A stretch of DNA of 64,000 bases from Dictyobacter aurantiacus (GTDB lineage: Bacteria; Chloroflexota; Ktedonobacteria; Ktedonobacterales; Ktedonobacteraceae): the NCBI RefSeq assembly GCF_003967515.1, contig NZ_BIFQ01000002.1:868001-932000 (forward strand), read 5' to 3'. Positions within the stretch are counted from its first letter, which is position 1; each line of letters begins with the position of its first letter. The notes beneath the pieces are model-generated. The model did no database searches. It was not told where the DNA came from and worked only from the letters and a program-made list of their open reading frames with translations. Positions 14,176 to 52,060 of this stretch are shown here, piece by piece. Both the position numbers and the translations under genes were made by a program.

Positions 14176-14379
14176 GAATGTGTTTGATTCCCGCCATCAT
14201 GGGGGCACGTGCGCGCCCCCGCACGCGCGTCCGCTACGCGGCCACATTGTTTTTGTATGTTGGTGCAGTGCGTGCGCATCTGCGCACGCACTGCACCAAC
14301 ATACAGCGGACTCGTGAGCACCAGAGGTGCGAAAGCTCAGGCGTGCAGCAGCCGATGATCATGAGAATATGACACATTC
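14176..14379. repeat. MITE-like interspersed element, copy at 14.2 kb
   Basis: The ends GAATGTGT (14176) and ACACATTC (to 14379) are inverted repeats, and TTT flanks both sides as a possible 3-bp duplication. The interior has GCGTCCGCTACGCGGCC, then a hairpin (TTGGTGCAGTGCGTGCGC paired with GCGCACGCACTGCACCAA), then GAGCACC..GGTGCGAAAGCTC. No coding capacity. It belongs to the same family as the copies at 43409, 50821 and 51025. Confidence 0.75.
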
Positions 14380-25198: not shown

Positions 25199-26212
25199 CT
25201 ACAAACGGGTCCAGTCAAAGATGACGCCCATCGCGGTCGCTCGTTCCTCGCGTAACATGCGATACGCCTCAACGGCATCGGTGGGAGCGTAGCGATGGGT
25301 CACTAAATCATTGACACGCATATCACCACGTTCGACATAGTCAAAAAATAACTCACCCATGCGCAGATGCGACCAGTAGGCATGATCGGTCGAAGTGGAA
25401 GGAGGATTGTTATCGTGAGCGCCCACGATGGTCAGCCCCTTCCTGATCACATCACCGGTAAGTTGCTGAGCCGCCGGCGTGCCGGTATCGCCCAGCAACA
25501 CCACTCGACCCAGGGGACGCGCCAGGCCCAGGGCCAGCGGAAATACAGGCGCCGCGCCCGTAACATCGTAGACCACGTTGACGCCCTGTCCCTCAGTCAG
25601 TCCCAGCACATGCTCACGCGCCTCGTCCGCCCCCATCTTCAAAATAGTGGTCGCGCCGTGGCTACGAGCCATCTCCAGCCGCATCTCGGCCACGTCGATG
25701 GCGAGCACCTGCTGCGCACCCAGCAGCCGCGTATACTGCACAACCAGTTGTCCCAACAGACCCAGACCAATCACCGCCACCGTGTCACCTAATTGATGCT
25801 GCGCCCGGCGCACACCATTCTGCACAATCGTCGCCAGGTGAAACCAGGTAGCATCCTCGTCGGACACGGCATCGGGAATACGATACACCGGTTCGCGCGC
25901 TGGCACCACCTTATACTGGCTATGGCTCTGTCTGATAGCGACGCGATCACCCTCACGCACCCGCCGCACATCCCTGCCCACCGCGGCCACCCGCCCCACC
26001 AGACTATAACCGGTATGAAATGGATACTTCACCCACTGATCCCAGTGCGTACCGGGATCGAACAGCCGTCCCAGACAGATACCCTCAGTCCCCGTACTGA
26101 TCAAAGACTTTGTAGCCTGCAGCAAAAATTCATCCGGCCCCAACTCAGGCACATCTTCATCATACACCTCAACCTGATTTTTTCCCGTGAAGACAATGTT
26201 CTGTGATTGCAC
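25199..26212 (-). CDS. Medium-chain alcohol dehydrogenase-like oxidoreductase
   Basis: A 337-residue MDR protein. TGYSLVGRVAAVGRDVRRVREGDRVA is the GroES-like catalytic fold and VAVIGLGLLGQLVVQYTRLLGA is the NAD(P) site. The STGTEG stretch resembles the SDH/bacteriochlorophyllide-dehydrogenase branch, and the usual structural zinc Cys cluster is not apparent. It starts at GTG 26212 with AGGAG 7 bases upstream, which decides the start. The gene lies 59 bases upstream of the amidohydrolase, in the same direction, so they may form an operon. Confidence 0.8.
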   Translation of the reverse strand: MQSQNIVFTGKNQVEVYDEDVPELGPDEFLLQATKSLISTGTEGICLGRLFDPGTHWDQWVKYPFHTGYSLVGRVAAVGRDVRRVREGDRVAIRQSHSQYKVVPAREPVYRIPDAVSDEDATWFHLATIVQNGVRRAQHQLGDTVAVIGLGLLGQLVVQYTRLLGAQQVLAIDVAEMRLEMARSHGATTILKMGADEAREHVLGLTEGQGVNVVYDVTGAAPVFPLALGLARPLGRVVLLGDTGTPAAQQLTGDVIRKGLTIVGAHDNNPPSTSTDHAYWSHLRMGELFFDYVERGDMRVNDLVTHRYAPTDAVEAYRMLREERATAMGVIFDWTRL

Positions 26213-26318
26213 GCGACAGCTCCTGACTAGCTCTATATGACAACGTTTTAGCCTTAGTATTTATCAATATAACATACCTATATTCTTATTCACGCAATTT
26301 TCTTCTTTTCAGAAGTGC

Positions 26319-26376
26319 GTTTTAGTTTTGTTGCAACAGATGAGCGAATACTCATCTGTTGCAACAAAACTAAAAC
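26319..26376. repeat. Perfect hairpin, 26-bp arms, 6-base loop
   Basis: Arms 26319-26344 and 26351-26376 are exact reverse complements (GTTTTAGTTTTGTTGCAACA and mate). It lies upstream of the dehydrogenase start. T- and A-runs on both sides could give two-way termination. Confidence 0.75.
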
Positions 26377-26546
26377 AAGAGGATGGGGACGCCTGCGTTC
26401 CCCACCCCTCGGGAATATTTATGAATATTTGCAATGTTTGGAGCAATCCAAAAATAAATACAACGTTGTATCGAAATTTTTAAATAATTATGTTACAATT
26501 AGCTCGACAGACGAAAGCGCTCCTGATGGATATAAACATAAAGAAA

Positions 26547-26639
26547 TGTTTACCTGTGGATAACTCCGCTCGGGAGCGGCGGTAAACACTCATGAATGCT
26601 GGGTGGCTTCTCTTTATCCCTGAGTGTGTAAAGAGAAGC
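26547..26639 (+). ncRNA. Candidate structured RNA upstream of the sugar importer
   Basis: TGTTTACC (26547-26554) pairs with GGTAAACA (26581-26588) around an inner CCGCT-CGGG-AGCGG hairpin (26566-26579). A second 11-bp stem, GCTTCTCTTTA/TAAAGAGAAGC (26606-26616 with 26629-26639), follows with a 12-base loop. Part of that loop, TGAGTGT (26621-26627), can pair with ACACTCA (26586-26592), a possible pseudoknot or alternative fold. I cannot assign it to a known riboswitch class. It lies about 370 bases before the binding-protein gene, so a leader role is possible but unproven. Confidence 0.4.
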
Positions 26640-27008
26640 AATGAAATTTCAGCCAATCATAGTGCCATTCTTGCAATGGTCACAGTCGTCTTAAGGGGTG
26701 TCATATGCAAAATTTGCAAACTTTGAGCCAGGTATCCTACACGTCGATGATGACATCTACCATATGGATACGCACCCAGGCCTCTCCTCCATATAGTTGT
26801 TCCTTATCCACTTCTTTTCTATTGCTGACAAGCTTTCGTGTTGCCTGCGATAAACGTTAATGCTTACCAGTTTGCACCTTTAAGCGATGCTATCTGTTAG
26901 GGGTGTAATGTTTATCGGACGAACAGTCAACATGATGAGGTTGTATATAAATCTGTGGTCTTAATCAACAATCGTAGACGCTCATTTACCTCAGGAAAGG
27001 AATCGACA

Positions 27009-28334
27009 ATGACGTATGAGCCAGGTACGGAGTCAGAGGGAAGATCCGGGGGGCGCCTAAATCGGCGCGCCTTCCTCGAAAAATCTCTGGCGCTCGGCGT
27101 TGGTGGTAGCGCCGCGCTCTCACTGTTGAGCGCCTGCGGCACCTCGGCCAGTGCCGCATCCGGTGTGACCTATTGGAACCTCTTTGGTGGCGGCGATGGC
27201 GCGCGCATGATTCAGATGCAAGATCTGTTCACCAAGAACCATCCCGACATCCCATTAAAGGCTGTAACCCTATCGTGGGGGCAACCCTACTACACCAAAG
27301 TCGCCATGTCGGCGGCCGGAGGTCGGGCACCGGATGTGGGCATCTGCCACCTCTCACGACTCTCTACATTCGCCGCCATGAAGTTTCTGGACCCATTCGA
27401 CCTTGATCTGCTATCGCAGGTAGGCATCACCCAGGACAACTTCCTGCCAGAGGTCTGGCAGCGCGCGACCTACAATGGCAAGCTCTACGCCCTGCCCCTG
27501 GATACGCATCCTTACGTGATGTACTACAATACCGACGTCTGCAAAAAAGCTGACCTGCTGGATGACAATGGCAACCTGAAACCACTACAGGGACCCGATC
27601 AGCTGATCAGCGCCTTTCAGGCGGCGCAGAAGGTCACCGGCTTTACCGGCATCGCCTTCCTGGATGCCTGGCGCCTCTTTGATTCACTGTATGGCCAGCT
27701 GGGAGGCAAGATCCTGTCGCCGGATGCCAAAGAGATCGTGCTGGACGACGCCAAGGCCGAGCAGGCACTGGACTTCATGGCCAACCTGACGCAGAAAGCG
27801 AAGGTGATGCCGGCCAACATCGACTCGGTGGCCGTCTTCGGCAGCGGCAAATCAGGCTTCCTGTGGAACGGTGAATGGGAGGTCACCACCTTTATCACCC
27901 AGAAGACACCCTTTAACATGATCCCCTTCCCCAATGTCTTCGGCAATACAAAAGTCTGGGGTGACTCGCACTCCTTTATCTTGCCCCACCAGGCTTATCC
28001 CGACAAAGGTCGCCAGCGCGCCACCTATGAATTTATGGCCAGCATGCTCAAAGAAGGTCAGATCTGGGCTGAAGGCGGGCATATCCCCGCTTATCTACCA
28101 GTCGCTACCAGCGAGGCATACAAGCAGCTCAAGCCACAATCGAACTATGCCAACGCAGCTGCTGATGTCGTGGCCGATCCGGCAGCCTGGTTTAGTGGCG
28201 CGGGCTCCGACTTTGAAACCCAGGCTGATGGAGCCTTCCAGACAGTGCTGCTGGGCCAACTGACACCACAGCAGGGCGTCCAGCAATTCAAGAAGGCCAT
28301 CCAAAAGCTCATTGATACACCATCGCCAATCTGA
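27009..28334 (+). CDS. Sugar ABC transporter substrate-binding lipoprotein
   Basis: The 441-residue protein is a family 1-type extracellular binding protein. The N-terminus has a twin-arginine-like signal (NRRAFLEKSLALGVGGSA) ending in a lipobox (LLSAC at about 40), so it may be Tat-exported and lipid-anchored. The SGVTYWNLFGGGDGARM start and YYNTDVCKKADL fit the sugar-binding cluster. The ATG at 27009 has AGGAAAGGA upstream. It is followed by two permease genes at 39 bases and then by a coupled pair. Confidence 0.88.
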   Translation: MTYEPGTESEGRSGGRLNRRAFLEKSLALGVGGSAALSLLSACGTSASAASGVTYWNLFGGGDGARMIQMQDLFTKNHPDIPLKAVTLSWGQPYYTKVAMSAAGGRAPDVGICHLSRLSTFAAMKFLDPFDLDLLSQVGITQDNFLPEVWQRATYNGKLYALPLDTHPYVMYYNTDVCKKADLLDDNGNLKPLQGPDQLISAFQAAQKVTGFTGIAFLDAWRLFDSLYGQLGGKILSPDAKEIVLDDAKAEQALDFMANLTQKAKVMPANIDSVAVFGSGKSGFLWNGEWEVTTFITQKTPFNMIPFPNVFGNTKVWGDSHSFILPHQAYPDKGRQRATYEFMASMLKEGQIWAEGGHIPAYLPVATSEAYKQLKPQSNYANAAADVVADPAAWFSGAGSDFETQADGAFQTVLLGQLTPQQGVQQFKKAIQKLIDTPSPI

Positions 28335-28373
28335 TGCGCAAGCAAGTTTCTTTACTCAAAGAAAGGCATATTT

Positions 28374-29315
28374 ATGTCTGAAATGCTTATTCAACAAGAG
28401 GCGGCTCAATCTGCCAGGCAAGTTCGTACCGTCCCGCAGGGGAACGTCAACTGGCGCACCCAGTTGACGGGCTGGAGCTTTGTGCTCCCCTTCCTGATTG
28501 GCTATGCTATCTTCACGCTCTGGCCGGTCATCCTCGGCTTCCGTATGAGCTTCTACAACTGGAGCCTCAACGGCGTGGCGCGTTTTCTGGGATTGGGCAA
28601 CTACCAGGAATTGATGGGCGATGCCGATTTCTGGAACTCGCTCTGGCACACCATCTATTTTACAGTTCTGAGCACGCCGATCCTGGTGATTCTGGCCTTC
28701 TTTCTGGCATTGCTGGCCAATCGGCAGATGCCGGGCCGCTGGATTTTCCGCACAGCATTCTTTATCCCGGTGGCCTTGCCGATCGCGGTAACCGCAATCA
28801 TCTGGAACTGGCTCTATCAGCCTGGCTTTGGCCTGATCAATAACATGCTGGCCGGCATTGGCCTGGGGCCGGTGGACTGGCTTAACGACGCCCATGTCGC
28901 CATGATCTCGATCGTCATTATGACCGTCTGGTGGACGGTGGGTAGCAATTTCCTGCTCTACCTGGCGGGTCTGCAACAGGTGCCGGCCGAGCTCTATGAA
29001 GCGGCCGCCATCGATGGCGCCGGCTCATGGGCTAAAACCATCTCGATTACCCTGCCACAGTTGAGCCGCATCACCATGCTGGTGGTGATTTTACAGGTCA
29101 TCGCCTCCCTGCAGGTCTTCGGTCAGATGTACCTGCTCACCGGTGGCGGACCCAACTTCGCCACACGCTCAGTGGTGGAGTACATGTATGAGACCGGATT
29201 CTCATCCTTCCGCATGGGCTTCGCCTCGGCGGCATCCTATATTCTCTTTTTCCTGATGCTGATCATCACCATCATGCAGTTCGTCTTTTTCCAGCGTCCA
29301 CAGAGGAGGGCATAA
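28374..29315 (+). CDS. Sugar ABC transporter permease (MalF/UgpA type)
   Basis: A 313-residue inner-membrane permease with about six helices. The first helix is WSFVLPFLIGYAIFTLWPV. The EAA loop that contacts the ATPase is ELYEAAAIDGAGSWAKTISITLP. It overlaps the next gene (TAATG), so the two subunits are translationally coupled. Confidence 0.9.
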   Translation: MSEMLIQQEAAQSARQVRTVPQGNVNWRTQLTGWSFVLPFLIGYAIFTLWPVILGFRMSFYNWSLNGVARFLGLGNYQELMGDADFWNSLWHTIYFTVLSTPILVILAFFLALLANRQMPGRWIFRTAFFIPVALPIAVTAIIWNWLYQPGFGLINNMLAGIGLGPVDWLNDAHVAMISIVIMTVWWTVGSNFLLYLAGLQQVPAELYEAAAIDGAGSWAKTISITLPQLSRITMLVVILQVIASLQVFGQMYLLTGGGPNFATRSVVEYMYETGFSSFRMGFASAASYILFFLMLIITIMQFVFFQRPQRRA

Positions 29316-30190
29316 TGGCCACACAGAGCATCCAAAACACCAACGTGACAACGACCAGGCGCCCGCTGAATCTGCCGCGCCAGGTCGGCAAATGGGGCGC
29401 CTTTGCCATCCTGCTCATCTTCGCGGTTATCTGGCTACTGCCGATCGCCTGGGTACTGGACACCTCGTTCAAGCCGGAGGGTGAGACAACAATTCTACCG
29501 CTGACATGGCTCTCGTCAGCCTTCAACATCCAGGCCTATATCAGCGTGCTCTCGTCCAGCGATCTGCCGCGCTGGTATTTCAATAGCGTCTTTACCTCGG
29601 TCATCATCTCGGCGGCCGTCGTGCTGCTGGCCAGCATGGCCTCCTTCTCCATCTCGCGCATCCCCTTCAAGGGACGCTCGGTTGTCTTCTGGCTCATCCT
29701 CTGCGGCCTGATGATTCCGGGACAGGTCCTGCTGGTCCCGCTGTTCTCGCTCATGCAGTCGTTCCAGATGATCGACACCTACTGGGGCATTATCCTGCCG
29801 CAGATCTTCTCACCGTTCGCGGTCTTTATCTTCAAACAATTCTTTGATGGTATCCCGCACGAATACGAGGAGGCGGCGCGCATGGACGGTGCCAGTCCCT
29901 GGCGCATCTACTGGCAGATCTGGATGCCGCTGGCGCGTCCGGCCATCGCCACCATCGCCATCTCAACCTTTGTGGCCGCCTGGAACAACTTCATCTGGCC
30001 CTTCCTGGTCGTCACCGGAACTGACATGATGACCGTGCCCGTTGGCCTGGCCACCGTCCAGACCTCCTATGGCATTCGCTACGCCCAGATCATGGCCTCC
30101 GCCATCCTGGGTGGCCTGCCCGCCGTCATCGTCTTCGTCATCTTCCAACGCCAGATCGTCGCCGGTCTTGCCGGTGGCCTGAAGGATTAA
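29315..30190 (+). CDS. Sugar ABC transporter permease (MalG/UgpE type)
   Basis: The 291-residue second permease has about six helices and the EAA loop EYEEAARMDGASPWRIYWQIWMPL. With the binding protein and first permease it makes a carbohydrate importer (CUT1 type). No ATP-binding gene is in the operon, so a shared ATPase (MsmK/UgpC type) elsewhere is inferred. A long palindrome ends the operon. Confidence 0.9.
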   Translation: MATQSIQNTNVTTTRRPLNLPRQVGKWGAFAILLIFAVIWLLPIAWVLDTSFKPEGETTILPLTWLSSAFNIQAYISVLSSSDLPRWYFNSVFTSVIISAAVVLLASMASFSISRIPFKGRSVVFWLILCGLMIPGQVLLVPLFSLMQSFQMIDTYWGIILPQIFSPFAVFIFKQFFDGIPHEYEEAARMDGASPWRIYWQIWMPLARPAIATIAISTFVAAWNNFIWPFLVVTGTDMMTVPVGLATVQTSYGIRYAQIMASAILGGLPAVIVFVIFQRQIVAGLAGGLKD

Positions 30191-30194
30191 AAAC

Positions 30195-30268
30195 ACAACG
30201 ACCAAAAGCAATGTGTGGCTCATGTGGCGCTAGCGCCACATGAGCCACACATTGCTTTTGGTCGTTGT
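30195..30268. repeat. 74-bp perfect palindrome without loop
   Basis: Arms 30195-30231 and 30232-30268 are exact reverse complements over 37 bases, with GGCGCTAGCGCC at the centre. It lies 5 bases after the stop codon of the second permease gene, so it may be a terminator, but there is no strong T-run. Perfect loopless palindromes of this size are normally unstable in bacteria. Confidence 0.85.
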
Positions 30269-30304
30269 CGTAAATAAAGAGGTCACGACACCAACGTGTT
30301 GTGA

Positions 30305-30562
30305 TTACACCAATTTTATGATGGTTGGCGTCATGTACGGGAACATCGGAAAGGTGGACAGGTATTGCCTCACCTGTTCTTCTGTGTCGCCGTTGACAAT
30401 TATCCAGACCTGGGGACGTGCGACATCGGGCGCGCTGATGTAGAGGCCATCTATCAGCCCCTGCGCTTTGCCTTCAGCTACATGCTGGCGCTCCTGCTGC
30501 ACTAGCTGTCCCAATTCAGCCTGCGAGCCCTCTTTAAAAGTGATATCAATCATCCATTTCAT
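30305..30562 (-). CDS. Muconolactone delta-isomerase-like small protein
   Basis: The 85-residue protein resembles the muconolactone isomerase / YciI-like ferredoxin-fold group: MKWMIDITFKEGSQAELGQLVQQER, then GLIDGLYISAPDVARPQVWIIVNGDTEEQVRQYL. Such small proteins form ring-like oligomers; an isomerase role here is not proven. The start is ATG 30562 after GAGAGG. It is 24 bases downstream of the heme peroxidase gene on the same strand and is probably co-transcribed with it. Confidence 0.7.
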   Translation of the reverse strand: MKWMIDITFKEGSQAELGQLVQQERQHVAEGKAQGLIDGLYISAPDVARPQVWIIVNGDTEEQVRQYLSTFPMFPYMTPTIIKLV

Positions 30563-32144: not shown

Positions 32145-32350
32145 CAGTCCATGTGTTGGTGCTTCGGGTGCGCAGCGGACGCGCGTGTGGAATTTCGAGC
32201 CTGCGGTGCACACGAGTCCATGGTGTGTTGGTGCAACAGGGGCGCAAATGCGCCCCTGTTGCACCAACACACAAAAACAATGCGACCGCGTAGCGGACGC
32301 GAGTGCGGGGGCGCGCAAGGGCCACCACCATGACGAGAGTCAGACACAAT
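32145..32350. repeat. MITE-like interspersed element, diverged left end
   Basis: The interior hairpin is TGTGTTGGTGCAACAGGGGCGC/GCGCCCCTGTTGCACCAACACA (given in parts: arms near 32224-32245 and 32250-32271). It is followed by GCGTAGCGGACGCGAGTGCGG and the right terminal repeat GAGAGTCAGACACAATC (to about 32350). The left end is rearranged and repeats TGTGTTGGTGC, so only the right end is clear. It ends 7 bases before the stop of the aldo/keto reductase gene. Confidence 0.6.
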
Positions 32351-50820: not shown

Positions 50821-51022
50821 GAGTGTCTGACTTCCGTCACCCGGGGGGCGCGTGGCCGCCCCCGCACGCGCGTCCGCTACGCAGACGCATTGTTTTTGTG
50901 TGTTGGTGCAGCAGGGGCGCGGATGCGCCCCTGCTGCACCAACACACCATGGACTTGTGAGCCCCGTAGGTGCGAAAGCTCAGACGTGCTGCAAGCGATG
51001 ATCATGGGAATCAGGCACGCTC
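50821..51022. repeat. MITE-like interspersed element, copy A at 50.8 kb
   Basis: Ends GAGTGTCTGACTTCCGTCA (50821) and GGCACGCTC (51022). Interior: GGGGGGCGCGTGGCC, CGCACGCGCGTCCGCTACGC, then a hairpin TTGGTGCAGCAGGGGCGC/GCGCCCCTGCTGCACCAA and GGTGCGAAAGCTC. It abuts copy B after two bases, so the pair lies head to tail. No open frame. Confidence 0.8.
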
Positions 51023-51689: not shown

Positions 51690-52060
51690 TGGTGCATGCG
51701 TCCATCACCCCTGGGGGACGGGGGCGCCCCCGCACGCGTTTTTTGTGTTGGCGCATGAGCATCTGCAATGCCCAATCTCCCATAGCCTGGTGGTACAACC
51801 GGGGCGCATTCGCGCACCGATGCGCCAACACAAAACTGGCACATGAGCACCTGCAGTGCCCAATCTCCCATAGCCTGGTGGTGCAACCGGGGCGCATTCG
51901 CGCACCGATGTGCCAACACAAAACTGGCACATGAGCACCTGCAGTGCCCAATCTCCCATAGCCTGGTGGTACAACCGGGGCGCAAATGCGCCCCGGTTGT
52001 ACCACCAGACAAAATCAGTGCGGACGCGCTCACGTGTCACCACAATGACGGATGCCCACA
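51690..52060. repeat. Repeat cluster with 88-bp tandem units
   Basis: Three tandem units begin at 51757, 51845 and 51933 (period 88), starting GAGCAYCTGCARTGCCCAAT. The third unit diverges at about 51983 into a hairpin (CTGGTGGTACAACCGGGGCGC/GCGCCCCGGTTGTACCACCAG). Outer sequence resembles the MITE-like family (GGACGCGCTCACGTG..., GCACGCG) but the ends are degraded. It seems to be one element expanded by tandem duplication. Confidence 0.75.

Follow-up and report, generated by a model that had tools for sequence, protein, structure and literature searches.

Predicted folded leader of a probably LacI-controlled ABC sugar importer in a lineage-specific segment of a Ktedonobacteraceae genome

ABC sugar importer operons under the control of LacI-family repressors are the described systems closest to the locus analysed here, which resembles them in its gene order, with a gene for an extracellular solute-binding protein (SBP) and two permease genes, and in a perfect palindrome with a central CG in the promoter region, the core of which recurs at or near SBP genes of relatives and beside a LacI gene of the host. 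The locus lies in a 64-kb window, the whole stretch of DNA analysed, corresponding to positions 868001-932000 of contig 2 of the 8.9 Mb Ktedonobacteraceae genome G000. An earlier note had drawn four pairings between 26547 and 26639 and read them as a structured RNA serving as a leader or small RNA for sugar uptake. To our knowledge, few such RNA elements have been described in this bacterial branch. Among the literature listed, 'Ktedonobacter' and 'riboswitch' occurred together in one paper, the title of which points to another subject. Based on the analysis below, we propose that the region comprises an ordinary promoter and a partly folded 5' untranslated leader, both belonging to an ABC sugar importer under LacI control and located in a lineage-specific segment (probability about 0.72).

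Table 1 Features of the importer locus and its leader (positions in the window).
Feature	Coordinates	Strand	Basis or remark
Zinc-binding dehydrogenase gene	25199-26212	opposite to importer	
Leader and importer segment, absent at the syntenic place in congener G004	26234-30314		synteny comparison
Perfect palindrome ATACAACGTTGTAT, putative LacI-type operator	26458-26471		promoter region, central CG
TACAAT, extended -10-like element, TG 5' of it	26494-26499	+	weak promoter score
Predicted three-way junction	26518-26578	+	MFE and centroid
Junction outer helix	26518-26526/26570-26578	+	predicted fold
Junction arm A	26528-26529/26553-26554 and 26533-26539/26546-26552	+	predicted fold
Junction arm B	26556-26560/26565-26569	+	predicted fold
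First-drawn outer stem, 8 bp	26547-26554/26581-26588	+	read from sequence
First-drawn inner hairpin, 5 bp	26566-26570/26575-26579	+	read from sequence
Possible pseudoknot, 7 bp	26586-26592 with loop bases 26621-26627	+	complement read from sequence
Perfect hairpin, 11 bp, 12-nt loop	26606-26616/26629-26639	+	pairing probability 0.97-1.0 in all stretches folded
SBP gene, importer gene 1	27009-28334	+	SBP_bac_8 3.7e-22, SBP_bac_1 8.8e-19 (computed on frame 26955-28331)
Importer permease 1	28374-29315	+	BPD_transp_1 3.2e-12
Importer permease 2	29315-30190	+	BPD_transp_1 1.5e-21

The three importer genes follow one another 3' of the folded element and on its strand. Four of the six loci with SBP relatives are named Ktedonobacteraceae or kin in public records, and the remaining two, from an actinobacterium and a spirochaete MAG, are weaker matches. 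The closest SBP relative (69%, in G009) is encoded directly 3' of the end of an alpha-L-arabinofuranosidase gene and has no comparable leader. In the congener G004, synteny extends up to window position 26233 and resumes at 30315, with an HD-domain frame in between. Immediately 3' of the importer stands a 35-bp perfect palindrome (30195-30268), close to where the segment lacking in this congener ends on the right.

The palindrome ATACAACGTTGTAT has a single perfect copy in the genome and three further places with one mismatch, one of which is in front of a GH43 glycosidase. A scan of the whole loci of the SBP relatives (n=15) recovered its core, TACAACGTTGTA, in five of them (L037 and L040-L043), in the last four as a tandem pair. 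L043 also carries a divergent LacI gene, and the best match of its product in the host genome (58%, C1:4793564-4794445) is flanked by the TACAACGTTGTA core, about 180 bases past the end where the gene starts, and on its opposite side by a distant SBP relative (25.6%). Since this core recurs in SBP loci of relatives and beside the host LacI gene, we infer that the importer is under LacI control, and the LacI-type operator in the promoter region would already account for control by sugar. Most likely, a LacI-family repressor would bind the observed palindrome and block the promoter, and sugar would release the repressor and leave the promoter free. Transcription would then begin near 26506 and produce a leader of about 500 nt, the first 135 nt of which are predicted to be able to form a three-way junction with a hairpin after it. 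The folded 5' end would most likely only shape the end of the mRNA, influencing stability or access.

A transcript start is predicted near 26506, and the number of promoter-like sites (2 found, 2.3 expected in shuffles) and their score are no better than in shuffled sequence. The operator is 5' of the predicted -10, spanning roughly positions -48 to -35 relative to the predicted start, unlike in relatives such as L043, where it seems to overlie the start. The distance from operator to start codon is 537 nt here versus 273-283 in four relatives with the same operator, whose leaders show no excess of folding over shuffles (z +1.82, +1.3, +1.04 and +0.13), and the leader of a fifth relative is likewise unfolded by this measure (z +0.31). 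A folded leader therefore does not belong to this type of operon. A hairpin in the L037 leader that opens with similar letters was considered and set aside, as the L037 leader folds no better than shuffles.

All four of the pairings drawn earlier are present in the sequence, but they cannot form together, because the 7-bp pairing takes bases 26586-26588 of the outer stem: its arm overlaps the 3' strand of that stem by 3 nt. The outer stem is mostly formed in the isolated 93 nt (pairing probability 0.12 to 0.96 per pair), falls to about 0.5 in 26530-26660 and is close to 0 in all three transcripts tried with the predicted start at 26506; it is thus not favoured from that start. The bases of the inner hairpin (26566-26579) are paired otherwise in the MFE structures of the longer transcript. 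An interrupted 8-bp stem around a 5-bp hairpin occurs three times in the 64 kb versus a total of four in 10 shuffles, and the other two occurrences are within coding frames. The earlier note considered chance pairing of all four unlikely. The 7-nt loop complement has a chance of 0.0081 given the hairpin. The fold of the 93 nt is only moderately better than shuffles (z -2.73), with 148 of 3196 93-nt windows on both strands of the 64 kb as low or lower, and perfect hairpins of at least 11 bp are common in the window.

The fold preferred by modelling is instead the three-way junction followed by the 11-bp hairpin. The stretch 26506-26639 is predicted to fold at -44.5 kcal/mol (z -3.83; 1 of 1000 shuffles as low), the MFE and centroid structures coincide for 26506-26645 (z -4.15; 0 of 200 shuffles as low), and the junction region 26516-26581 by itself has a z of -4.16. 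Across the 64 kb, 76 of 2130 windows fold as low as 26506-26639, a figure that becomes 25 of 2030 once 100 windows touching any of the other 18 perfect hairpins have been removed. From operator to SBP start, the whole 537 nt has a z of -2.68. The lower leader holds an inverted 12-base pair, CGATAAACGTTA/TAATGTTTATCG (26848-26859 and 26906-26917), within 134 nt that rank second among the parts of the leader in folding (z -4.15). The reading as a structured RNA before the importer survives in part: the 5' end of the leader folds somewhat better than chance and so has a modest claim to being an RNA element specific to this lineage, but not in the form drawn and with none of the relatives searched carrying it.

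The 64-kb window contains 19 perfect hairpins of at least 11 bp versus two in 20 shuffled windows combined. The shortest of them is the one in the leader, and no other has a 7-nt complement between loop and flank. The leader hairpin has no T-run on either side or strand and so lacks the form of an intrinsic terminator; the sole terminator-like structure listed is a 6-pair hairpin at 26587-26605, whose T-rich tail coincides with the 5' arm of that 11-bp hairpin. The loop pairing is compatible with the three-way junction and competes with the hairpin 26587-26605 and with the first-drawn outer stem. Leaving both of its arms open costs 4.6 kcal/mol (-44.5 to -39.9), and because the 7-bp duplex alone contributes -8.0, loop penalty excluded, the modelled pseudoknot is possible. 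Several sequence matches were rejected. Two viral contigs carry the 11-bp stem unchanged, and these copies resemble one AT-rich phage terminator with a different loop and a T-run. A 17-base match (26624-26640) recurring in several relatives belongs to a coding-looking stretch that is alike between those genomes, the peptide of which we take to be typA, and is unrelated to the hairpin. Around an 18-base match in G002, no similar structure is visible.

Rfam covariance models gave no match at curated thresholds in the 64 kb, and at permissive thresholds all matches in 26500-26660 scored far below the curated values. Other permissive matches were discarded as microRNA-like, falling on the 26-bp palindrome described below, or as chance. 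The earlier note had been unable to assign a riboswitch class with confidence, and the Rfam check agrees in that no family fits. With 26490-26700 as query, blastn returned matches at E <= 1 in 35 of 61 genomes, which outside the query's own place reached at most 29 bases and at best E 0.079; a search with 26500-26660 at E <= 0.01 matched only one of 47 genomes, the host itself. A single-sequence covariance model of the first-drawn structure, applied with strict filters, likewise found only itself in 47 genomes, and one built on the three-way form recovered no sequence but its own in 54 sources (0.61 Mb), with weaker matches at E 0.85 or more. Plasmid and phage records gave no match. A 20-base match of G007 to the lower leader (E 0.009) was set aside; inspection of that locus did not locate it. 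Comparison with the upstream regions of related importers, which had been proposed as a check, yielded no homologous leader, as the complete intergenic region, compared by blastn with 18 SBP-relative loci, gave nothing better than E 0.61. Conserved pairing is lacking because homologous leaders are absent from the relatives searched, with importer and leader missing at the congener's syntenic place, rather than because pairing fails in relatives, and the absence of relatives of the leader fits the absence of the entire segment there.

Other repeats occur nearby and elsewhere in the window. Between the divergent genes stands a perfect palindrome of 26 bp (26319-26376), its loop 6 nt long and without a T-run; of all stretches scanned in the window it folds best (z -14.1, minus strand). 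The stretch 26374-26413 is part of a dispersed repeat: 26300-26420 gave 23 blastn matches in the host genome, most of them to 26374-26413, and had no match at E <= 0.01 in four congeners. Further perfect hairpins occur at 956-1015, 14254-14305, 32223-32272, 50898-50947 and 51963-52008, some of which share the core TTGGTGCA(N)CAGGGGCGC. When one mismatch is allowed, the genome has this core 114 times in forward and 109 times in reverse orientation, and its hairpins form a large REP-like family, some copies of which stand in regular arrays 95 bases apart (G000 C1:2370978-2371375).

A purely passive leader leaves unexplained a fold that beats 999 of 1000 shuffles and a pseudoknot complement that is a 0.8% event, though 25 of 2030 windows fold as well. 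An alternative is a lineage-specific cis-regulatory RNA, in which the junction and the pseudoknotted hairpin (26586-26639) form a compact domain controlling importer translation or transcript fate, and the first-drawn stems, using the same strands, represent an alternative switch state. The z scores of -3.83 to -4.15, a pseudoknot with a chance of 0.008 that is compatible with the junction, and the mutual exclusivity of the two folds argue for such an element. We nevertheless consider it unlikely given that the relatives searched hold no homologue, and hence offer no covariation, that Rfam has no match, that about 370 nt separate the element from the start codon with no terminator 3' of it, and that relatives' leaders with the same operator are unfolded. 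It is correspondingly improbable that a species-restricted RNA in the leader adds a second, RNA-level control to the LacI-controlled sugar importer.

The position of the element, on the importer's strand, 5' of its genes and 3' of a plausible promoter, fits the leader half of the earlier proposal of a leader or small RNA for sugar uptake. An independent small RNA ending near 26640 could draw on the same promoter-like element as its own and on the stable hairpin at its 3' side, but the T-run is absent after that hairpin and no copy exists in any relative searched, making this reading very improbable. Slightly less improbable, and still very doubtful, is that the inverted repeats work at the DNA level, providing regulators with half-sites whose arms are GGTAAAC-like. 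The arms TGTTTACC/GGTAAACA presumably resemble half a LacI-type site and a looser pair, CGATAAACGTTA/TAATGTTTATCG, is present at 26848 and 26906; such half-sites are, however, weak when alone, and GRTAAACGTTTAYC occurs only once in the genome even when one mismatch is allowed, so that no regulon is visible. The least credible alternative is a short coding frame of 44 codons, from an ATG at 26592 to 26726, that overlaps the hairpin. The frame is open and preceded by a G-rich stretch, yet this length is unremarkable among the 18 frames of at least 20 aa over this stretch, there is no Pfam match, and the relatives searched hold no homologous DNA. If the region is only the leader of the importer, as we favour, its interest is largely limited to the annotation of a LacI-controlled importer in a class that has been little studied; a functional fold would represent lineage-specific RNA control absent from Rfam.

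Compared with LacI-controlled importer operons, the window importer differs in having no directly adjoining LacI gene, in its single operator placed 5' of the -10, and, set against four relatives, in its longer and more folded leader. Unlike riboswitch leaders, it matches no Rfam class, has no conserved core and shows no expression platform, being without a terminator and with the start codon about 370 nt away. As a type, it is nonetheless like them in that its 5' leader is predicted to form a three-way junction and may form a loop pseudoknot.
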